Positions 57 through 10,904 of a stretch of 22,694 nt of DNA are shown here, in pieces. The position numbers were made by a program, and so were the translations under genes. The notes under the pieces were generated by a model. That model ran no database searches. It had not been told where the DNA came from and was given only the letters and a program-made list of their open reading frames with translations. Origin of the DNA: a virus; the IMG/VR virus record IMGVR_UViG_3300032116_006717, positions 1 to 22,694 of that record; one strand, given 5' to 3'. Positions within the stretch are counted from its first letter, which is position 1, and each line of letters starts with the position of its first letter.

Positions 57-1340
57 TTGAGTGATACATTTTTAGGACGTACTAGAGCATGGGTGGCTGA
101 AAAGCTAAATCCAGTTCAGCCCTCTATAGCTAGAGACGCTGGTTATCAAGTACCTGAAACAATAGTTGATTATGAAAGAGCTTATCGTGACGTAGAAGTA
201 ATACGTCGCGCTGTAGACATTATTATCAACGCTTGTGCAAATGTGCCATTGACCATAGATGGTGGTGCAGCTCCTAAAAAACTAAATAAACTTTTAAATA
301 TAACTCCTAATCCTTTTGAAGATAGAAATAGAATATTTCGCAGATCTTTCCTAGATTTTATGCTAGATGGTAATGCCTTTTTTTACTATGATGGAACATC
401 TCTATATGCATTACCTGCTAACGAAGTAGCTATTCAGCCCGATGAAAAGACTTTCGTTAAAAATTATCAATATCAACTCAGAAGTGGTTCGGTTCTTTAC
501 GGTTTTGACAAGCCAAAAGTTAATAATATAAACTTTGACCCGGATGAGATTATCCATGTAAAATCAGATAATGAAGATTCAATCTTTAGAGGTTCCTCTA
601 GGTTAAAGCCTCTTAGAAGACTGATAGAGCTGTATTATGCTTTAACAGACTTCCAAAGACAGTTCTTCAAAAATAATGCAATACCTGGCATAGTTTTACA
701 GACAGATTCTGTACTAAGTCAGAAGGTAAAAGAAAGACTACTAGAAGCCTGGAGAAATACTTATTCTAACGTATTTCAGGGAGCTAGAAGTCCCGCCATC
801 CTAGACGGTGGTTTGAAAATTGAAAAGTTTAGTAACATCAACTTCAGAGAACTAGATTTCGAAGCCTCAGTTGATAGATTACAGCAAGATATGTGTAAGG
901 CGTTAGGTGTACCTTATGTCTTACTAAAAAGCGGTAATAATGCTAACATAGAAGTAAACGAAAGACTTCTATATAATCACGTTGTTCTACCTATACTACA
1001 TAGTTATTGTAGCGCCTTTCAGTTATACTTTGCGGGAGATGTAAAAATATATCCAGATAAGTATGCGATCTCTGCTCTACAACCAGATAATAAAACTCAG
1101 GCTATGTATTATACTACTCTAGTAAATGGAGGTATCATATCTCCTAACGAAGCTAGAGAAGGTTTAAGACTATCAAGATCTACAGATCCAGAAATGGATA
1201 AGATAAGAGTGCCTCAAAATATAGTAGGTAGTGCTACAGACCCTTCTCAGGGCGGTAGACCAGTAGAAGAAGATAGAACAGAGCCTACAACAGTTACTCC
1301 CTTAGAGGATACAAACACACAAGGATCGACTAATGGATAA
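57..1340 (+). CDS. portal protein, HK97 gp3-like
   Basis: Ring-forming portal at the unique capsid vertex: it nucleates head assembly, docks the terminase and is the channel for DNA entry and exit. The 427-residue length and overall sequence fit HK97-type portals: an N-terminal segment on residues replaced by a stem-like region (DFQRQFFKNNAIPGIVLQTD), a central region rich in Arg/Lys helices, and a variable Pro/Thr/Asp-rich C-terminal tail after about residue 390. Start chosen is TTG at 57, with GAGG at 46-49 seven bases upstream; the ATG at 44 is in another frame and stops within a few codons. The gene overlaps the protease/capsid gene by 8 bases, the classic portal-protease-capsid order. 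The family assignment is from sequence resemblance and synteny. Confidence 0.9.
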   Translation: MSDTFLGRTRAWVAEKLNPVQPSIARDAGYQVPETIVDYERAYRDVEVIRRAVDIIINACANVPLTIDGGAAPKKLNKLLNITPNPFEDRNRIFRRSFLDFMLDGNAFFYYDGTSLYALPANEVAIQPDEKTFVKNYQYQLRSGSVLYGFDKPKVNNINFDPDEIIHVKSDNEDSIFRGSSRLKPLRRLIELYYALTDFQRQFFKNNAIPGIVLQTDSVLSQKVKERLLEAWRNTYSNVFQGARSPAILDGGLKIEKFSNINFRELDFEASVDRLQQDMCKALGVPYVLLKSGNNANIEVNERLLYNHVVLPILHSYCSAFQLYFAGDVKIYPDKYAISALQPDNKTQAMYYTTLVNGGIISPNEAREGLRLSRSTDPEMDKIRVPQNIVGSATDPSQGGRPVEEDRTEPTTVTPLEDTNTQGSTNG

Positions 1341-4194
1341 GAAATTTTACTTAAGTGCCTCATTTGAAGCGAATTCTGTACAGAAGAAAACAGGTAGCAA
1401 AAGTTTAAAAATTGCTGGCTATGCTAATACTGTAGATAAGGATCGCGCAGGTGATGTTGTACTTCCAGCAGCATGGGCTAAGGGAATAGACAGGTTTCGT
1501 AAGAATCCTGTTTTATTATATCAGCACAAACACGAAAATCCGATCGGCAGAGTAGACAAAGTAACTGTTGATAAAAAAGGTATGTTCATTGAGGCTTCCG
1601 TTAGTGAAGCTGCTGAAAAATTACACGGGGTTCATAGTCTCATAAAAGACGGAGCCCTAAAAAGTTTTAGCGTAGGTTTTCTAGTAAAAGACGGAAAACT
1701 AGATAAGGCTAACGATACATTCGTTATATCTGATGTTGAACTACTAGAAATCAGCGTTGTAAGTGTTCCTGCTAACCAGGAAAGTCTTTTCTCTGTAAAG
1801 AAGAATTTTGAAAATCAAGAAGAGTATGAGACCTTTAAAAAGTCTTTTCCAGTTCAAGATGCAAAAGAAGAAGAAGAGATTAAAGCTTCTATGACTTCAG
1901 AAGAGAAAGCTATCTTAGAAAACGAAGGCCCATATAGAATTGGTATAACTACTCGTGATATGGGACACTATCATATTTTCCAAATGACAGATACAGACGA
2001 TGGCGCTACTATTTTCGGCTCTGATTCTAGAGAGCACGTTCATCAGATAATTAATGGCCAAATTCAGGCTGCAGAAGGCCACACTCACAGAATTCTTACT
2101 ACCGCGGTTCACGCAGAGCAAGAAGACGAAGAAGAGGAAAGCGTTCCTAATATCTTTTTAATGAGTGGAACAGAAGATACTGTGCAGAAAACAGTAGAGA
2201 CAAAAGATTCTGAACAAGCCGAAGAAGATACTGTAGAAGAAACAGATCCTTACGAGCCAATTCCTTTTGTAAATCTATTAAGCGCAAGCACTGGAGCACT
2301 AGCTAATGGACAATTTGTTCAGCTAAAAGGTGAGAGGTATGTAATTACTAAGATTGCTACTTCGGATAGTCCAAGTTTCCAGTTTAAACAAGTAGATTTA
2401 CAGGGACAGCATCTTGATAAAATTTTAAACATTGACGCTACTTCCCTAGAAGTGTTAAATATATGGGATGTAGGAACAAATTTTGATATTCAGCTAGCAG
2501 AGATCGAAGAACTCAGTCTAGATGAAGATACAAAACAGACTATCCTAACAAACTTTAAAAACTTAAATAACGTAACCGAAAAAGATCTATATGATCTCAA
2601 AACAGACAACCTAGTAAAAACTAACCCAACTCTACAAGAAAAACTAAACAAAACAATAAACTTAGTATCTACTAAAAACTGGACTGATTCTGACTTTGTA
2701 GTCGCAAATAGAATTTGTCAAGTTATTCATAAATTGAAAGAAATTGAGCACAGTGAAGCATCTATGCGACAAATAATGCTAAAGCTTCACGGTCATTTAG
2801 AAGCTCAAACAAAGGAGAAATTAAATATGGCTACTCAGGCTGTTGACGAACCAGTTGTTATTGGTTCTACTGCTGAAACCAAGGCTGAGGCTACTGCCAC
2901 AGCTAAGGTTGCCGAGCCTCGTGTTGCTGAGCTAGTTGAAAAGACTGGTGAAGCTATCATCAAGGAAGCAGACGCAAAGGATAAGTACGGTGAGTATACT
3001 CCTCGTGAATCTGAAAAGGCTGCTGAACTTCAGGCTCAGATCAAGAAGTACAAAGACGAAATTGCTGCACTACAGAACAGCAAGATGGTATTCCAGGAGC
3101 AGTCACGTGCTTCTCAGTTCACTCAGCGTGAACTTGCTAATGCCTACCTACTATCTAAGGCACTTCGCAAGGAATCTGTATTCGACACCAAGCTAGGTGC
3201 TCGTATGAAGGCAGTAACAACTGTAGATCAGTTCCTATCAAACTTTAGCTCAGATGTTTATACTGAACTACAGCAGGAACTAGTTGTTGCTAAAATGCTA
3301 CGTCGTATGTCAGTAGACGCAAAGACTTTCAGAGTCCCAGTTGCTGACGAAGACACCGATGGTGATGTAGCACAGTTCGCTAGCGGAACATATACCACAG
3401 GTATTGCCGACGCTACCAACGTGCCAACTTCAAACCAGAGCACAATCAAGTCTGTAGACTTCACACCTCACAAGTTCATGGCTACAACACACCTAGCTAA
3501 GGACGAAGAAGAAGATACAATTCTTCCTCTACTAGACTTCCTACGTACCGCTTCTATGCGTCGTATGGGCCGTGCAATCGACAAGGCTCTACTACGCGGT
3601 GACGGTTCACTAAGCGGGTTCACTGCTTCACCAACTAATGCTATCACAGCAGGAACTGGTTATGCTGCAGTATTCAAGGGAATTGCAACCCTAGCCAATG
3701 ATATCTCTGGTCTCCGTGTTCAGACCGGCGGTAACTCAACCAAGGCTACCCCAGCTAACATTGCTAGCGCACGTGCCGTATTAGGTAAATACGGTCTACA
3801 GCTAGGAGATCACCTAGTATATCTAACAACTATTGAAGGATATAACGAGCTAGTATCAAATTCAGACTTCCGCACAGTTGATAAGTTCGGTCCAAACGCA
3901 ACCTATCTAACAGGTGCTCTTGGAGCTGTATACGGAATTCCAGTTATGATCACTGAGTTCCTAGACGTTGTAGGCGGTGCAGACCGTCACATCGGTCTAC
4001 TAGTATACAAGCCAGGGTTCCTAGTAGCTGAGCGCCGTGCAATGGAGATTGAGAGCGAATACGATCCACGTCGTCAGCTAACTGCAATCTACATGAGCAC
4101 ACGCCTAGACATGAAGGCACTAACAACTAACTCAAGTGCTGCCCTTGATGCAACCAAGTATTCAATGGCATCAGTAATCCGTTCTGGAGCATAA
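1333..4194 (+). CDS. prohead protease - linker - major capsid protein fusion (HK97 type)
   Basis: A 953-residue polyprotein. Residues about 20-155 are an HK97-type (S78/U35) maturation protease: His65 in LLYQHKHENPIG, Ser113 in LKSFSVGF and Glu139 in LLEISVVSVPAN fit the expected active site. Residues about 156-498 are a long acidic linker with three His-x-His motifs (212/214, 235/237, 250/252) and no family I recognise. Residues 499-953 are the HK97-fold major capsid protein with an N-terminal coiled-coil delta-like segment (about 560-610). The start has AAGGA at 1321-1325. Family knowledge says the protease cuts delta domains and itself during maturation; the linker may be a scaffold. An in-frame internal start at 2827 with a strong ribosome binding site and a codon-use change suggests that most MCP is made separately, with the fusion as a minor product. 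Confidence 0.9.
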   Translation: MDKKFYLSASFEANSVQKKTGSKSLKIAGYANTVDKDRAGDVVLPAAWAKGIDRFRKNPVLLYQHKHENPIGRVDKVTVDKKGMFIEASVSEAAEKLHGVHSLIKDGALKSFSVGFLVKDGKLDKANDTFVISDVELLEISVVSVPANQESLFSVKKNFENQEEYETFKKSFPVQDAKEEEEIKASMTSEEKAILENEGPYRIGITTRDMGHYHIFQMTDTDDGATIFGSDSREHVHQIINGQIQAAEGHTHRILTTAVHAEQEDEEEESVPNIFLMSGTEDTVQKTVETKDSEQAEEDTVEETDPYEPIPFVNLLSASTGALANGQFVQLKGERYVITKIATSDSPSFQFKQVDLQGQHLDKILNIDATSLEVLNIWDVGTNFDIQLAEIEELSLDEDTKQTILTNFKNLNNVTEKDLYDLKTDNLVKTNPTLQEKLNKTINLVSTKNWTDSDFVVANRICQVIHKLKEIEHSEASMRQIMLKLHGHLEAQTKEKLNMATQAVDEPVVIGSTAETKAEATATAKVAEPRVAELVEKTGEAIIKEADAKDKYGEYTPRESEKAAELQAQIKKYKDEIAALQNSKMVFQEQSRASQFTQRELANAYLLSKALRKESVFDTKLGARMKAVTTVDQFLSNFSSDVYTELQQELVVAKMLRRMSVDAKTFRVPVADEDTDGDVAQFASGTYTTGIADATNVPTSNQSTIKSVDFTPHKFMATTHLAKDEEEDTILPLLDFLRTASMRRMGRAIDKALLRGDGSLSGFTASPTNAITAGTGYAAVFKGIATLANDISGLRVQTGGNSTKATPANIASARAVLGKYGLQLGDHLVYLTTIEGYNELVSNSDFRTVDKFGPNATYLTGALGAVYGIPVMITEFLDVVGGADRHIGLLVYKPGFLVAERRAMEIESEYDPRRQLTAIYMSTRLDMKALTTNSSAALDATKYSMASVIRSGA
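2813..2829 (+). promoter_or_regulatory. internal ribosome binding site and ATG for the capsid protein
   Basis: AGGAG at 2813-2817 lies 9 bases before ATG 2827-2829, which is codon 499 of the surrounding protease-capsid frame. It is as good as or better than the signals of most free-standing genes here. Codon choice changes at this point from AGA/ATA-rich to CGT/ATC/AAG-rich, as expected where a heavily translated gene begins. Confidence 0.75.
2827..4194 (+). CDS. major capsid protein, HK97 fold, from the internal start
   Basis: The same frame as the fusion, translated alone from Met499 to give 455 residues, a normal size for an HK97-fold capsid protein with its delta domain. The first roughly 120 residues are Ala/Glu/Lys-rich and helical, including a short coiled coil (LQAQIKKYKDEIAALQNSK), and should be removed by the protease. 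The shell domain follows, with motifs such as RRMGRAIDKALLRGDG and the C-terminal strand region near RRQLTAIYMSTRLDMKAL. Arg codons here are mostly CGT/CGC, against AGA upstream. The next gene, a decoration candidate, shares this codon preference. The shell fold is inferred from family pattern and position; separate translation is inferred from the internal start. Confidence 0.75.
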   Translation: MATQAVDEPVVIGSTAETKAEATATAKVAEPRVAELVEKTGEAIIKEADAKDKYGEYTPRESEKAAELQAQIKKYKDEIAALQNSKMVFQEQSRASQFTQRELANAYLLSKALRKESVFDTKLGARMKAVTTVDQFLSNFSSDVYTELQQELVVAKMLRRMSVDAKTFRVPVADEDTDGDVAQFASGTYTTGIADATNVPTSNQSTIKSVDFTPHKFMATTHLAKDEEEDTILPLLDFLRTASMRRMGRAIDKALLRGDGSLSGFTASPTNAITAGTGYAAVFKGIATLANDISGLRVQTGGNSTKATPANIASARAVLGKYGLQLGDHLVYLTTIEGYNELVSNSDFRTVDKFGPNATYLTGALGAVYGIPVMITEFLDVVGGADRHIGLLVYKPGFLVAERRAMEIESEYDPRRQLTAIYMSTRLDMKALTTNSSAALDATKYSMASVIRSGA

Positions 4195-4951: not shown

Positions 4952-6229
4952 ATGGCAAACTATGTAACTCTAGCAGAAGTTAAAAACTATCTTAAGATTA
5001 ACAGCACAGAGCATGATGGTAGATTAGCAAATCTAATTACCTATGGCTGCTCTGTGATAGAGAGTTATTGTGGGCGAGTTTTCTCTTCTAATTCATATAC
5101 TGAGATATTTGATGGCGGAACCTCTAGCTTATTTGTTAAAAACATACCCGTAAATAATGTTCATCAGGTTTTAGAATATGATGGCAGACAGTATCAAGTT
5201 TTAGACGGTCCTACAATAGACAGTTCGATAGTTGACGCTTCTAGAGTAAATAAAACAGTTACTTCTAATACAGGGTTTAGTCTTCAAACTAGATTTGTAA
5301 AATATGGAATTTCATCCGGTCAGTTAAACGGTTCTGGAGGATATTTATCTTTAACAGACGACGATGATTTCTGGTTTGATAGCTTACCTTTTGCGGTTGA
5401 AGGCTGGTTTAGATTTAATACTTTAGTCAGCTCTCAGACCCTTTTCTCACAAGTAGAAGACAGTAATAACTATTGGAAGTTTGGTTTTAGCAACACACAA
5501 GGACTAGTTTTTGAAGCTAAGCAAGGCGGAACTCAAATTGCCTATGTAGCTAATGGTTCTGTTACTGGCTATACTGCTAATCAATATGTCCATGTTATGT
5601 TTTCTAGAGATGAGAATAACGGTTGCAGAATATTTAAAGGCGGATCTTTAGTAAGTCCTGTAGTAACAGTATCTAATGTATTCCCTAACCTATCCGCACC
5701 CGTAGAGATAGGAAGACAAAATTTAACAGATAAACAGTATTTCTCAGGTCAGTTAGATGAGATAAGAATGTCCCTAAATAGTTACAGAGCCAATGCTAAT
5801 TTTGTGCCACAAACCTACACATATTCAACAGATACAAACACTACGTTATTAATGCATTTTAACGGTTCTAAAGATGCTATTACTACCTATGATTCATCTT
5901 TAAATAGAGAACAGTATACATGGTATGGAGCTACTGGAGAAATAACTAAACACGTTGGGCAAGACACAGGTAGAGAGACTCTTAGTATCTTAGGTGTTAA
6001 ACAGTTTTATAACTATACGCATGGTGTAAAAATTACTTATAACGGTGGTTATGATACTATACCTTCTGATGTTAAACTAGTTACTTTAGACTATATTAAA
6101 GAATTACATAAAGGGTTAGAAAATAGAGCGGTTTCTCTACAAGGAGAAAGTATTTCGTCCTTTGAATTTACAGGTGGGTTTGCTCCGCATATTCGTCGCG
6201 TGTTGGATCTTTATAGGATTGTGATGTAA
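4952..6229 (+). CDS. head-tail connector (gp6/gp15-like) with an inserted LamG-like domain
   Basis: Residues 1-85 look like the N-terminus of a phage head-tail connector of the HK97 gp6 / SPP1 gp15 kind: LAEVKNYLKINSTEHDGRL, then an IESYCGRVF helix and a strand pair. Residues about 350-425 complete that fold: VKITYNGGYDTIPSDVKLVT, the usual GGY-x-x-(I)P-x-D pattern ahead of helices. In between, residues about 105-315 match a LamG/concanavalin-like jelly roll: FAVEGWFRF, YVHVMFSRD, FSGQLDEIRMS and a closing TTLLMHFNGS. Ordinary connectors have roughly 100-200 residues; this one has 425, the excess being the insert. The connector should form a ring under the portal, with LamG projecting outward, perhaps to bind glycans. 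The next gene begins at the overlapping TAATG. Confidence 0.8.
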   Translation: MANYVTLAEVKNYLKINSTEHDGRLANLITYGCSVIESYCGRVFSSNSYTEIFDGGTSSLFVKNIPVNNVHQVLEYDGRQYQVLDGPTIDSSIVDASRVNKTVTSNTGFSLQTRFVKYGISSGQLNGSGGYLSLTDDDDFWFDSLPFAVEGWFRFNTLVSSQTLFSQVEDSNNYWKFGFSNTQGLVFEAKQGGTQIAYVANGSVTGYTANQYVHVMFSRDENNGCRIFKGGSLVSPVVTVSNVFPNLSAPVEIGRQNLTDKQYFSGQLDEIRMSLNSYRANANFVPQTYTYSTDTNTTLLMHFNGSKDAITTYDSSLNREQYTWYGATGEITKHVGQDTGRETLSILGVKQFYNYTHGVKITYNGGYDTIPSDVKLVTLDYIKELHKGLENRAVSLQGESISSFEFTGGFAPHIRRVLDLYRIVM

Positions 6230-7713
6230 TGGTTGATAAGCCTATAGTTTTTATTGAAAACACAGGATTCCAAGAACTCACTGCTAAGTATTATAAAAGA
6301 GATAATAAATTATCTAAAGATCAGGAATCTTCTTATGCTAAAGCTTATGAAACATATGTAGGACAGTTATTTGGAACTATACTTCCTAGAACTTCAAGTT
6401 CAGATACTAGACCTGACATACCTATCACTAAAGCTGATGTAGATAAACTTCTTGAAAATAATCAAACAGAAGATAGCACCATATTTAGTTTTCTTGATGA
6501 ATTAAGACAGAATTTAGCAAAATTAGAAGAAGGAGTAGATTTTCAATCTTTAAGAGAAGCCTTTGTTAATGCTGCTAACACAGAAAAAGACCCTAATAGA
6601 AGATTATCTTTATTACAAACTATAGGAGGTATTGAAATTAAAGGTTCTTTCGGTATAGACTTATTAGGTGGTAGTGACGATTCTTTAAAAATTAGTAGAA
6701 AAACTCCTAGAGGATTAACAGGTAGACAGATAAATATAAAAAGTATTTTAGGAGGAGTAAAACCTGAAGGATCTAGTTTAGTTATACCGATAGTCACTTC
6801 TATAGATACTAGTAAAGTAGAAGCTAAACGTCTTGCTCGTACTATTAAAGATTTTTTTGACAGGGCAAAAGATAATTTACATAGCGCTATTACTGGAGAA
6901 TATTCTGGGACTGATCCTAAATTATTATATTTTAAAAATTCAGTTGCAGTTAAACAAATCAGAGCTAAGGGTCAGAATCTATGGATGCAGTATGTAATAA
7001 GATCTGGCGCAACTGTTAAGTCATATTCAGCCTATTTACCAGAGAGTTTTAAAGTACAGAACACCAACTTACAGGTGCAGAGTTCTAGTTTATATATAGC
7101 ATATACAACTGCATATGAAAATAAAGTTTTGGAAAGACTAAAAACAGCTATTCAAACTAAATCAGGACAAGCTGTAGATAAAATAATTAAAGATACAGAT
7201 ATCAAAGACCTATTGTTGGCTCCACCTACTGTAACTACTCAAATATTAGTACCTTCCGGAGGCTCTATACCTATTTCTACAGTTAAATACCCAAACAATT
7301 ATATACCTCGTATAAATAAAGCAGCTTTTCAAAGTAGAATTAATTCTATTGTATCTATTTTAAGAGAGACTAGAGGGTCTACTAAAACTATGGGTGATTT
7401 CATCACCGACGACACTATAACTGCTCTAACTAAAAGAGAGATGCTTCGTCGTATGCCTATCGGTCCTGTGGGAGGACCTCCTAAGTCTTCTAGAGTATTA
7501 ACCTATCGCACAGGTAGATTTGTAAATAGCCTACAGGTAATGGCTAATATAAGAACACAGAATATGCAATATTATTATGATCCTAACTACTGGGTTCACG
7601 AAGCTACTTCTAGAAATCCAAAAGATCTTATTGGTTCTTCCCTCAACTCTGTAACTAGAAGTCTGTTTGGTAAGAGGTTTAACCTAATAAAAGCTAATCA
7701 GAGTTTAGAATAA
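6229..7713 (+). CDS. putative neck / head-tail joining protein
   Basis: A 494-residue protein between the connector and the tail-terminator-like genes, the position normally filled by an HK97 gp10-like or lambda Z-like neck protein. The last 70 residues carry an RTGRF motif (427-431) in LTYRTGRFVNSLQV, then YYYDPNYWVHEATSRNP and a basic end; this resembles the RTG-x-F/L-x-x-S pattern of such neck proteins. The N-terminal 420 residues are not recognised: a Lys/Glu-rich helical start, then mixed strands and a Gly-rich stretch (residues about 135-185). It is much longer than usual neck proteins, so the N-terminal part may be an added domain. Starts at the TAATG overlap with the connector. Confidence 0.5.
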   Translation: MVDKPIVFIENTGFQELTAKYYKRDNKLSKDQESSYAKAYETYVGQLFGTILPRTSSSDTRPDIPITKADVDKLLENNQTEDSTIFSFLDELRQNLAKLEEGVDFQSLREAFVNAANTEKDPNRRLSLLQTIGGIEIKGSFGIDLLGGSDDSLKISRKTPRGLTGRQINIKSILGGVKPEGSSLVIPIVTSIDTSKVEAKRLARTIKDFFDRAKDNLHSAITGEYSGTDPKLLYFKNSVAVKQIRAKGQNLWMQYVIRSGATVKSYSAYLPESFKVQNTNLQVQSSSLYIAYTTAYENKVLERLKTAIQTKSGQAVDKIIKDTDIKDLLLAPPTVTTQILVPSGGSIPISTVKYPNNYIPRINKAAFQSRINSIVSILRETRGSTKTMGDFITDDTITALTKREMLRRMPIGPVGGPPKSSRVLTYRTGRFVNSLQVMANIRTQNMQYYYDPNYWVHEATSRNPKDLIGSSLNSVTRSLFGKRFNLIKANQSLE

Positions 7714-8159
7714 TGGCAACAAGTAGACGTAGAGAGATAGTTAACTATCTTATCACACAACTGAAAACTATAAACGGCTCTACGAGCCAATATGGATATC
7801 AGTTTAAAACCAACTTATCACAGAACGTGTTTAAAGGTCTTAAATATATAGATCAGATAAATGATTTTCCTGCTATTTATATTCAAGCAGGAGAAGAACT
7901 CTATAGATATAATTCTAAAACAAATACAGAAGCTTTTATGACTATTATGATTAGAATTTATGCACACGAAGAGCATAGTCTGTATAAACTAGAAGATCTT
8001 GTGGATGATATTACTCATGTTTTAGAGCGTGTTAAATATGACCAAAGTCACAAGATCATATCTGCCGAAATTGCGTCTATAGACACGGACTCCGGTTTAC
8101 TAGATCCCTATGGGTTAGGAGAAATAATGATTACGGTTCAGTATGATGTGGATGATTGA
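7713..8159 (+). CDS. tail terminator / neck-type protein, copy 1
   Basis: A 148-residue protein starting at a TAATG overlap. It begins with a basic helix (RRREIVNYLITQLKTING), then DQINDFPAIYIQAGEE, a strand (FMTIMIRIYAHEE), a helix (LEDLVDDITHVLERV) and a closing strand (YGLGEIMITVQYDVDD). This alpha-beta order and size fit lambda gpU-like or gp11-like tail terminators that cap the tail tube and join it to the head. The neighbouring downstream gene is a clear paralogue. The role is inferred from fold pattern and place between neck and tube genes. Confidence 0.55.
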   Translation: MATSRRREIVNYLITQLKTINGSTSQYGYQFKTNLSQNVFKGLKYIDQINDFPAIYIQAGEELYRYNSKTNTEAFMTIMIRIYAHEEHSLYKLEDLVDDITHVLERVKYDQSHKIISAEIASIDTDSGLLDPYGLGEIMITVQYDVDD

Positions 8160-8641
8160 TGAGTAGCAAACGTAGACAGATTATGAATGAAATAGTTTCG
8201 GCGCTCAAACTAATAGACGGAACTACAGAGACCCTACCTAACAGCCCTCGTAGTCCGTATACTTTTTGTACTAATGTATTTACAAACGTTTTTGCAAAAC
8301 AAGAATATTTATCAACTTTAAACGACTTTCCTAGTATTTGTTGTTATCCTATTAGTTCCGAAACTAGAGCTAGAATAGGAGATGCACAAGTTTTTTCTAG
8401 TTTTATTTTAGAAGTCAGAGGTTATGTCTATAGCGACGATAATCCTATAGAAAAAGCAGCTGATTTAGCTCAAGATATTCAATATATTATTGATTCTATG
8501 AAATATCGTTCTACTTTTAAAGACCTAAACGTAACTGAATGTAGAGTTCAGTCTCTATCAACAGATGAAGGCATAATGGAACCTTATGGAGTAGTAGAGA
8601 TTAGAGCGTTAATAGTATATATACAAGATTCTAACATTTGA
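8159..8641 (+). CDS. tail terminator / neck-type protein, copy 2 (paralogue)
   Basis: A 160-residue paralogue of the gene before it, sharing the basic start (KRRQIMNEIVSALKLIDGTT), the NDFPSI motif, the central strand (FILEVRGYVYSDD), the helix before MKYRS and the closing DEGIMEPYGVVEI (copy 1 ends DSGLLDPYGLGEI). Start is set at ATG 8159, overlapping the previous TGA as TGATG; a TTG one codon earlier is possible but unneeded. One copy probably acts as the tail terminator and the other as a head completion or second neck ring. Which is which cannot be told from sequence. Confidence 0.55.
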   Translation: MSSKRRQIMNEIVSALKLIDGTTETLPNSPRSPYTFCTNVFTNVFAKQEYLSTLNDFPSICCYPISSETRARIGDAQVFSSFILEVRGYVYSDDNPIEKAADLAQDIQYIIDSMKYRSTFKDLNVTECRVQSLSTDEGIMEPYGVVEIRALIVYIQDSNI

Positions 8642-8736: not shown

Positions 8737-9993
8737 ATGGCACAAACATTGAACCTTCAAAGAAATAGTGAAGTGTTCCTTTCTACTGTAAGTCTTAACG
8801 ATGGAGACGCAGTATCAGCAATGACACCGGCAAATACTTGGAAGGTTGAAATCCTTGCAGGTTATGCAATGTCACAGGCTGCAGCTACTCAGGACATCAA
8901 CAGCTTAGAGAGCGGTACTACACCAGATCGCTCTAGTAAGCGTTTTAAAACAGCAATGAACCCTGTAGAGTGGAATTTCCAAACATATATCCGTCCAACT
9001 GGTATTGAAAATACTACTGGCGGTACTTTGGTTCACACGTCAGGTAATTCAATGCCTACCTCAGATTGGTATCTATGGCAAGCTCTTATGTCAAATACTT
9101 CTACCTATACTACCAATAAGCTTACTAGCGTATGGCAGGCAGGTGGAAAGTTTGCTAGTGCTGCTAGAAATGCTAGCGGTAATACTGCTGCTCATACACC
9201 TAATTTCGGTACATCTGCTACTTATAATATGTATTTTAAACTTGATAACGTTATATATCAGGTATCTAATACAGCAGTTAATCAGGCTGCAGTAGACGCT
9301 GCTATTGACGCAGTTGCTACTACTACTTGGTCTGGATTTGGCACTAACCTAATAGAACTAACTGGTACTCCTAGAAATAATGCAGTATCTGTGTTTGGTG
9401 GTATTTTAAATAATGGAACCACAATAGACGCTAACAGTAATGCTTACGTAACCACTGCAACTCATTCTTATCAGCCTTGGGATCAGTGGAACGTAGCAGG
9501 AACAATCTCTACTGCAAGCTTCATTAAGAATAGACTTTCAAGCCTAACTGTTAAGTTTCAGCCTGAAGGCGGTTCTTCCACAACTTATACTTTCCCAATC
9601 ACGACTCTCACCTTCAACTATAACAATAATATCACCTTCATCACTCCAGAAGAACTATCAAAGGTCAATACCCCTATTGGTAGCTTCACGGGTTCTAGAG
9701 AAGTAACAGGATCATTCACTGCTTACCTACGTGGTGCAGACGGAGATTCTGCTCAATTCCTACGTGATCTAGCTAATGATCGTCGTCCAGCTCCTACTGC
9801 ATTCTCAAATGCAAACCTAGTTGTTGGAGGAGTTACTGCTCCATATTTAGCATTCAATATGCCTGCAGTAGTATTTGACGTTCCAACTCACGGAATTGAA
9901 GATATTATTTCAATATCAGTAAACTTCAAAGCACAGGAACCAATCAATACCGTTACAACCGGTGGTGAAGTAGACCTATACGCTAAGAAGTAA
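8737..9993 (+). CDS. major tail tube protein
   Basis: A 418-residue protein with an ideal AAGGAG (8725-8730) before ATG and codon use similar to the capsid gene, pointing to abundant expression. The N-terminal half has the pattern seen in many phage major tail proteins: KVEILAGYAMSQAAATQDIN, SGTTPDRSSKRFKTAMNPVEWNFQTYIRP. The C-terminal half is beta-rich and ends in strands such as AVVFDVPTHGIEDIISISVNF. These subunits stack as hexamer rings around the tape measure to form the tube. It is larger than lambda gpV (246 residues), probably because of a middle insertion of Asn/Thr-rich strands (residues about 110-250). Upstream are a candidate promoter and downstream a structured RNA, so it may form its own transcript. 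Confidence 0.8.
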   Translation: MAQTLNLQRNSEVFLSTVSLNDGDAVSAMTPANTWKVEILAGYAMSQAAATQDINSLESGTTPDRSSKRFKTAMNPVEWNFQTYIRPTGIENTTGGTLVHTSGNSMPTSDWYLWQALMSNTSTYTTNKLTSVWQAGGKFASAARNASGNTAAHTPNFGTSATYNMYFKLDNVIYQVSNTAVNQAAVDAAIDAVATTTWSGFGTNLIELTGTPRNNAVSVFGGILNNGTTIDANSNAYVTTATHSYQPWDQWNVAGTISTASFIKNRLSSLTVKFQPEGGSSTTYTFPITTLTFNYNNNITFITPEELSKVNTPIGSFTGSREVTGSFTAYLRGADGDSAQFLRDLANDRRPAPTAFSNANLVVGGVTAPYLAFNMPAVVFDVPTHGIEDIISISVNFKAQEPINTVTTGGEVDLYAKK

Positions 9994-9996
9994 CAT

Positions 9997-10020
9997 TTAA
10001 CTAGTTGAGGGGCTAGTTAA
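9997..10020 (+). other. hairpin A of the intergenic RNA
   Basis: Perfect 8-bp stem TTAACTAG (9997-10004) / CTAGTTAA (10013-10020), loop TTGAGGGG. It begins four bases after the tail tube stop codon. Bases GAGGGG of the loop (10007-10012) are fully complementary to CCCCTC (10061-10066) in the loop of a hairpin downstream. Confidence 0.7.
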
Positions 10021-10032
10021 CTTAATACCAAA

Positions 10033-10110
10033 GGCGCTTACCGCGACAATCTTTCGGGATCCCCTCATCCGATCGTGCGTCGATCAAACGGTAAGCGCCA
10101 CTTTATTTTT
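10033..10110 (+). ncRNA. structured RNA: four-way junction with a T-rich tail
   Basis: An 11-bp GC-rich closing helix, GGCGCTTACCG (10033-10043) / CGGTAAGCGCC (10089-10099), encloses three adjoining small hairpins: CGA/TCG (10044-10056, loop CAATCTT), GGAT/ATCC (10057-10070, loop CCCCTC) and GATCG/CGATC (10071-10085, loop TGCGT), followed by AAA (10086-10088). There are no unpaired bases between the helices except that AAA. The CCCCTC loop can kiss the loop of hairpin A. The region is far more GC-rich than the genes around it. It is followed by ACTTTATTTTT, an imperfect T tract, so it may end the tail tube transcript or protect its 3' end. I do not recognise an RNA family; the structure is read from complementarity only. 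Confidence 0.6.
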
Positions 10111-10125
10111 AAATTATGAGGAAAA

Positions 10126-10560
10126 ATGTCTAAAATTAAATCACTACTTGTCACTGGAGACAAGACTATTGATGTAGAATTTCCAGAAGCAGAAGGTTTC
10201 GTAGTTACTATTAGCTATGTTCCTCGCGAAGACTTAATGAAAATTAGAAATCAGGCACTAGTGTACAAATTCAACAAACGCACCCGCCAAAGAGAAGAGG
10301 AGGTGGATAATGACAAGTTTGTTGAGGCTTACGCTGAACGCGTAATTAAAGGCTGGAAAGGTCTTAAAGTTAAACATCTTCCAAAGTTGCTACCGGTAGA
10401 TATATCGGCAATGAACGCAGAAGATGAGTTACCATATTCTACTGAAGAAGCTCTTGAACTACTAAAAAATAGTAGTATTTTCGATCAGTTTATTACTGAT
10501 ACAGTAAATGATCTAGAAGCATTCTCTGTTAAGAAAAGAGAAACTGATCTAAAAAACTAA
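10126..10560 (+). CDS. tail assembly chaperone, lambda G-like
   Basis: A 144-residue protein between tail tube and tape measure, where the lambda G chaperone lies. It is acidic and mostly helical toward the C-terminus, with an N-terminal beta part (IDVEFPEAEGFVVTISYVPR). These proteins bind the tape measure and recruit tube subunits and are absent from the finished virion. The last codons, CTA AAA AAC TAA, contain a canonical -1 slippery heptamer, so a fraction of ribosomes should continue into the downstream frame to give a longer product. ATG follows a GAGG ribosome binding site (10118-10121). Confidence 0.8.
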   Translation: MSKIKSLLVTGDKTIDVEFPEAEGFVVTISYVPREDLMKIRNQALVYKFNKRTRQREEEVDNDKFVEAYAERVIKGWKGLKVKHLPKLLPVDISAMNAEDELPYSTEEALELLKNSSIFDQFITDTVNDLEAFSVKKRETDLKN

Positions 10561-10904
10561 AAAGTTACCTTCAGGAAACGTTTTCTGGGGGTAACATTAC
10601 TAAAGAACAATATTTTGAAATATGTCGACAAATGGGCAAAGAGCCTGTTGAGGAAGATATTCCTGTTGAACCAGGGGATTTATCTTTAGAAACTCAGCAG
10701 GCTCTTTTAATATTTAGTATTTTACCAGATAAAATTGAAGGTATGAACGGACTTTGGTTAGGCAAAGAATTTTCTGGTATAGGAGACATCTTTGATTTCT
10801 ACGAAATAGAGCATAGACGAGAGGTATTTGAACTGCTAACATATATTATTACTGAATATGCAAAATATTACGAGAAACAAAGAGAAATAAAATCAAGGAG
10901 ATAG
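10126..10904 (+). CDS. tail assembly chaperone fusion, lambda GT-like, by -1 frameshift
   Basis: The frameshift product joins 10126-10557 to 10557-10904: 144 residues of the G-like part plus 115 in the -1 frame, 259 in all. The -1 frame is open from the slippery site to TAG 10902-10904, with no stop. The T-like part is acidic and helical (EEDIPVEPGDLSLETQQALL, then LTYIITEYAKYYEKQREIK). The ATG at 10632 has no ribosome binding site before it and lies well inside this open frame, so independent translation from it is unlikely. In lambda a fixed G:GT ratio is needed for tail assembly; the same is inferred here. The tape measure gene begins two bases after the stop. Confidence 0.85.
10551..10595 (+). 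promoter_or_regulatory. programmed -1 ribosomal frameshift signal
   Basis: Slippery heptamer A AAA AAC at 10551-10557, in the correct register of the upstream frame, one codon before its stop. After a 6-base spacer, a hairpin (10564-10595) forms with a 14-bp stem: GTTACC pairs GGTAAC, TT faces GG as wobble pairs, and CAGGAA pairs TTTCTG with loop ACGT. Heptamer, spacing and stem are those of classic -1 frameshift sites. Confidence 0.9.

Follow-up and report, generated by a model that had tools for sequence, protein, structure and literature searches.

All examined phages of a broad uncultured T5-like group share an RNA element in the gap that separates the gene for the major tail protein (MTP; tail tube) from that for the tail assembly chaperone (TAC). 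Two hairpin loops of this element carry complementary hexamers, GAGGGG in hairpin A (loop A) and CCCCUC at the apex of a longer arm (loop L), and its structure is almost certainly real. The element constitutes an undescribed RNA family of a known general kind, that of mRNA elements with loop-loop pairing near a start site. The favoured reading of its function, to which a probability of about one half is assigned, is that of a translational switch acting in cis: hairpin A, as a Shine-Dalgarno (SD) mimic, would occupy an anti-SD loop, and the chaperone site would stay open. The strongest functional clue, overlooked in a preliminary description of this DNA, is that the chaperone SD repeats GAGGGG in most relatives.

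Locus and shared architecture

The window, meaning the whole stretch of DNA analysed, is a 22.7-kb record (22,694 nt; IMGVR_UViG_3300032116_006717) of an uncultured T5-like siphovirus, with genes in the order portal, protease/head, connector, tail terminators, MTP, two TAC frames and tape measure. Gene matches bear out the earlier placement of the element, with the major tail gene on one side and the frameshifted chaperones on the other, within an MTP-TAC gap of 132 nt (Table 1). The GC content is 50% in the element versus 36% in the window. Hairpin A with its 8-bp stem and the 11-bp helix, here termed P1, were recovered as previously drawn, and the loop-loop complementarity comprises six pairs, five of them G-C.

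Table 1. Features of the MTP-TAC region in the window (window coordinates)
Feature	Position	Strand	Remarks
Major tail protein gene (MTP)	8737-9993		phrog_3575
MTP UAA stop codon	9991-9993	+	13 nt upstream of GAGGGG
Hairpin A	9997-10020	+	8-bp stem 9997-10004/10013-10020, 8-nt loop UUGAGGGG
GAGGGG in loop A	10007-10012	+	SD-like; 5' partner of kissing helix
Linker, hairpin A to P1	10021-10032	+	single-stranded, 12 nt in window
P1 5' strand GGCGCUUACCG	10033-10043	+	11-bp helix
P2 5' strand CGAC	10044-10047	+	covariation; replaces part of the first junction hairpin described earlier
P3 5' strand UCGG	10054-10057	+	L054, L059 fold likewise
CCCCUC, apical loop L	10061-10066	+	partner of loop A GAGGGG; putative anti-SD for TAC
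P3 3' strand CCGA	10069-10072	+	L054, L059 fold likewise
P2 3' strand GUCG	10079-10082	+	covariation
3' bulge AUCAAA between P1 and P2	10083-10088	+	asymmetric bulge in most relatives' folds; possible hinge
P1 3' strand CGGUAAGCGCC	10089-10099	+	11-bp helix
U/A-rich single strand, P1 to SD	10100-10115	+	terminator-like U tract only in some clades
TAC SD AUGAGG	10116-10121	+	6 pairs with CCUCAU 10063-10068 of loop L, -8.1 kcal/mol
TAC first frame	10126-10560	+	phrog_313; gene presumed controlled
TAC second frame	10632-10904		

Homologous loci were gathered by searching IMG/VR with MTP, TAC and TAC-alignment queries, and those with 150 nt or more of DNA ahead of the TAC start were retained (147 loci, 85 distinct sequences). 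GAGGGG, then CCCCUC, then the TAC start occur at similar spacing in all 147 of these uncultured T5-like loci. When 75 distinct intergenic sequences were folded singly, with both hexamers constrained to be single-stranded, one shape was shared among them: hairpin A directly after the MTP stop codon, a linker, and an unbranched arm in which P1, a 3' bulge, P2, an internal loop and P3 lead to CCCCUC at the tip. The stop-to-GAGGGG distance is 9-25 nt (median 15; 75 distinct loci). The loop of hairpin A is mostly 7-11 nt in length with GAGGGG usually on its 3' side, and CCCCUC occupies the 3' side of the apical loop or a position close to it, as in the usual geometry of loop-loop complexes. Hairpin A was not predicted in L103 and L188 in these constrained folds. 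The arm is highly stable, with approximately 20-27 bp interrupted by internal loops that differ among clades, and few bases besides the two hexamers are invariant. The element thus has the defining feature of kissing-loop RNAs, namely two hairpin loops with conserved complementarity.

The preliminary description had P1 enclose three adjoining hairpins in a four-way junction. This junction is the minimum-energy fold of the window: at -29.3 kcal/mol, it is 1.8 kcal/mol better than the linear arm (-27.5 kcal/mol). The relatives argue against it. The arm is unbranched in 72 of the 75 distinct sequences, the branched ones being two window-type sequences and L172. Among the nearest relatives, the arms of the second junction hairpin are unpaired in both L054 (AAUU/AUCU) and L059 (AAAU/ACCC), and the third hairpin also fails in L054; P2 and P3 are instead kept and covary. 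The earlier judgement that the fold is unlikely to have arisen by chance has fared better. In the window, none of 200 dinucleotide shuffles of the region folds as well as the native sequence (z -3.4), the same architecture recurs at 147 of 147 homologous loci, and covariation is strong.

Covariation, distribution and novelty

Sequence-only alignments placed hairpin A out of register, and RNAalifold then retained P1 only; hence, a covariance model (R2) was trained on 15 sequences from one clade only. R2 nonetheless recovers loci from every clade, 73 of the 75 tested, including the window (9998-10100, 32 bits, E 1.6e-4), and misses L085 and L089, though both carry the motif. In the R2-based alignment, 96.5% of cells are paired against 74.1% after shuffling, two-sided changes are found in 567 cells against 171 and affect 30 of 37 pairs, and the covariation score is 0.659 against 0.245, whereas slid versions pair in 50% of cells at most. 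As the alignment is fitted to the structure, these figures are biased towards it, and with many closely related rows the cells are non-independent events; the per-sequence folds described above are independent of the alignment.

The preliminary description had called for compensating changes, and every stem exhibits them. All 7 modelled pairs of the hairpin A stem covary (94.6% of cells paired), the 13 modelled pairs of P1 have each changed on both sides (98.4% paired), P2 has two-sided changes in 3 of its 4 pairs (98.8% paired), and P3 covaries as well. Conversely, the six pairs of the kissing core are paired in 98.7% of cells and no two-sided change was seen among them. This core lacks covariation evidence because it is virtually invariant, its few departures being rows in which the model aligned loop A out of register. 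The pairs that flank the core vary more freely. The pair at position -1 is UA in 62 sequences, CG in 2 and unpaired in 11, while that at position +7 is GC in 47, GU in 12, AU in 4, UA in 1 and unpaired in 11. Owing to exceptions, in which A faces G in the L068/L085 group and C faces A in L189 and L197, the flanks provide only partial evidence of covariation. The retention of the element through near-complete turnover of its stem sequences indicates that it is under strong selection.

A 21-base pattern search of the viral collection returned 77 loci, of which 73 are at the MTP-TAC junction and 4 resemble chance matches. TAC was detected within 60 nt at 72 of these junction loci, and the remaining one is on a contig cut inside TAC. 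Whole-contig searches with R2, on contigs of up to 173 kb, found at most one copy per contig and no copy in some members, in which the sensitivity of the model is limited. The same model found no element in the cultured T5-like phages KIT04 and Gostya9 or in the CPphiVTCCBPA_418 record, where a minor tail protein gene directly follows MTP.

Neither the window nor six diverse relatives gave a match above the gathering threshold in Rfam 15, and an E-value search yielded scores far below threshold. DNA similarity to phage records was absent or limited to chance matches of 21-25 nt, and a literature search found no description of an RNA like the MTP-TAC element. The only match in a prokaryotic genome is L212 (LUQU01000016.1), 5 kb long and assigned by binning to a SAR86 metagenome-assembled genome (MAG). 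This scaffold has the RNA element along with a TAC gene and a gene of MTP size, and is either a misbinned phage contig or a hint of SAR86-like hosts. Additionally, the 41-kb record L140 (PQ773600.1) is labelled a “Corynebacterium phage”, but its gene order and level of matching in the MTP-TAC region are similar to those of Salmonella and Escherichia T5-like phages, and the host label may be wrong.

The chaperone Shine-Dalgarno and the proposed switch

Of 75 distinct loci, 53 have GAGGGG as the SD of TAC. This hexamer serves as the SD at none of 69 MTP starts, where AAGGAG is used in 65, and at none of 157 other ORFs, and it occurs only 16 times outside the element in 393 kb. In T5-like phages without the element, the TAC SDs are of the GGAG type. 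Because the SD repeats GAGGGG, loop L is complementary to both loop A and the TAC SD, and a loop of the element that is complementary to the downstream SD is the hallmark of SD-sequestering switches. The L:A duplex is the stronger of the two in 65 of 75 loci (mean -16.5 versus -12.5 kcal/mol), and L:SD is the stronger in the other 10. In most loci, L:SD is also better than duplexes with shuffled SDs.

The SDs that depart from GAGGGG retain part of this complementarity, namely AUGAGG in the window clade (L046, L053, L054, L059), GAGAGG in the L115 group and AGGGGG in L166. Loops A and L are unchanged in the window clade despite its altered SD, and likewise in the L115 group, where GAGAGG has one mismatch to L and a duplex energy of about -8 kcal/mol that is often no better than that of shuffled SDs. 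No covariation was detected between the SD flanks and L. These points, together with the 10 loci in which L:SD is the stronger duplex, count against the switch described next.

The favoured reading is a switch in the MTP-TAC stretch of the late mRNA that would control TAC initiation. Hairpin A, the 5' arm of which begins a few nucleotides from the MTP stop codon, would display its SD-like GAGGGG to loop L. Pairing of L with loop A would generate the kissing complex, leave the SD free and allow the chaperone to be made, while pairing of L with the TAC SD would close the site. The partners in A:L are the first to be transcribed and their duplex is usually the stronger one, so the open kissing state would be the likely default. 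Were hairpin A removed, most simply by a ribosome that terminates at the MTP stop codon, L would be free to close the site, and the closed site would restrain chaperone and tape-measure output during heavy translation of the tube protein. MTP translation is suggested as the input because hairpin A lies inside or beside the footprint of a terminating ribosome. We infer that L and the SD truly pair, that A:L is the open and L:SD the closed state, and that MTP translation is linked to the switch.

Such a mechanism would involve a chain of matches, with the SD matched to 16S rRNA, L to the SD and A to L. Hexamers that remain locked while the stems drift would follow from this chain, and competition is for this reason the simplest reading. 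Its full three-partner logic, in which the SD-mimic hairpin and the real TAC SD compete for one anti-SD loop and the virus thereby senses tube translation and sets the ratio of tube to chaperone and tape measure in the absence of a protein regulator, is proposed tentatively, as a possibility that falls short of being probable. In more general terms, the element probably sets the amount of the helper (TAC) relative to the tube. If the switch operates as proposed, it would represent a protein-free way to proportion an abundant structural protein and a scarce chaperone encoded by neighbours on one mRNA.

Alternatives, related systems and neighbouring genes

The long and highly stable arm directly 3' of the most-needed gene, together with a tertiary contact conserved throughout the relatives, could also be reconciled with a static kissing-loop fold whose role is to protect an mRNA end or to define one, either by blocking 3' exonucleases or through a cut by a double-strand nuclease such as RNase III that parts the abundant tube mRNA from the downstream tail mRNA. 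Such a fold leaves both the repeat of GAGGGG in the chaperone SD and the invariance of the core, as opposed to the covarying stems, unexplained, and it is considered unlikely. Invariant loops on freely varying stems are also seen in protein-bound RNA, and most clades have two copies of GAGGGG per element. The kissing fold or GAGGGG might be recognized by a protein of the phage or the host that represses or activates TAC, as feedback by tail proteins like that at the T4 gene 32 leader pseudoknot. However, an operator of this type has no need for the perfect complementarity of L, does not account for the SD copy, and is faced with few invariant bases beyond the two hexamers and the lack of a candidate protein; it is regarded as rather improbable.

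A regulated terminator had been among the earlier suggestions, and certain clades fit it. In the window and in several clades, a U-rich tract comes after P1 (10-15 bp), with 7 U in 8 nt in L085, L115, L157, L166, L187 and L092, and an intrinsic terminator or attenuator composed of P1-P3 could have its tube-to-chaperone read-through tuned by the kissing loop. Across the members, however, the first 8 nt after P1 contain anywhere from 3 to 7 U, with only 3-4 in L099, L090, L103 and L177, such that the U tract expected in all members of a terminator class is not a general feature. The stem-loop, at about 67 nt with internal loops, is also unlike an ordinary terminator, and a terminator scan listed none at this position, although one with so large a loop could exceed the limit of the scan. 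A terminator is judged very unlikely. A separate small RNA, also proposed earlier, finds no support in the sequence. The translational switch and its rivals can combine.

The closest parallel to the proposed switch is found in plasmid ColIb-P9, where pseudoknot formation reportedly activates initiation and an antisense RNA is said to regulate it. There, a loop between two genes pairs with a remote element close to the SD of the second gene, as loop L would do here. In both systems, the upstream frame ends right at that place, beside the helix that controls, or here would control, the fold (at the 9-25 nt given above); translation of that frame governs the fold in ColIb-P9 and would do so here. 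The parallel is with the ColIb-P9/IncI repY-repZ pseudoknot switch (Asano and Mizobuchi 1998, as cited in PMC10286972). In contrast to that switch, the conserved pairing here joins two hairpin loops upstream of the SD; the SD would compete as a third partner, and a complete structural gene provides the upstream frame.

A comparable coupling is the Min Jou long-distance interaction of phage MS2, in which the interior of the coat gene pairs with the replicase start region (PMC11339067). Pairing between a structural-gene region and a downstream start site couples two protein amounts in MS2, as is proposed here, but the present element belongs to a double-stranded DNA phage and consists of a compact intergenic kissing complex with a putative anti-SD loop. 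The T-even gene 32 leader likewise contains a phage mRNA pseudoknot near a start site, which serves as the nucleation site for an autoregulating protein, although it is not known to have an SD mimic or a loop-loop contact. The SAM-II and preQ1 riboswitches are pseudoknots that sequester the SD, which takes part there in an alternative tertiary pairing, as proposed for TAC. Unlike these riboswitches, the element has no conservation resembling a ligand pocket, as its internal loops vary between clades.

Further features were noted in the neighbouring genes. At window 10551-10595, the slippery heptamer AAAAAAC lies immediately 5' of the stop codon of the first TAC frame, followed 6 nt downstream by a hairpin (GUUACC 10564-10569/GGUAAC 10590-10595). 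The heptamer is close to the end of this frame in 112 of 113 distinct relatives, and on sequence grounds it is a conserved -1 frameshift site predicted to fuse the two TAC frames. Upstream, a single 953-aa frame (1333-4194) matches the head maturation protease phrog_80 at its N-terminus (residues 6-305) and the major head protein phrog_10 at its C-terminus (residues 440-799), an apparent protease-capsid fusion. Both of two neighbouring genes at 7713-8641 match the tail terminator family phrog_3907, which suggests a tandem duplication. Finally, the gene at 4952-6229 joins a head-tail adaptor (phrog_442) to a C-terminal region with matches to baseplate wedge or virion structural proteins.
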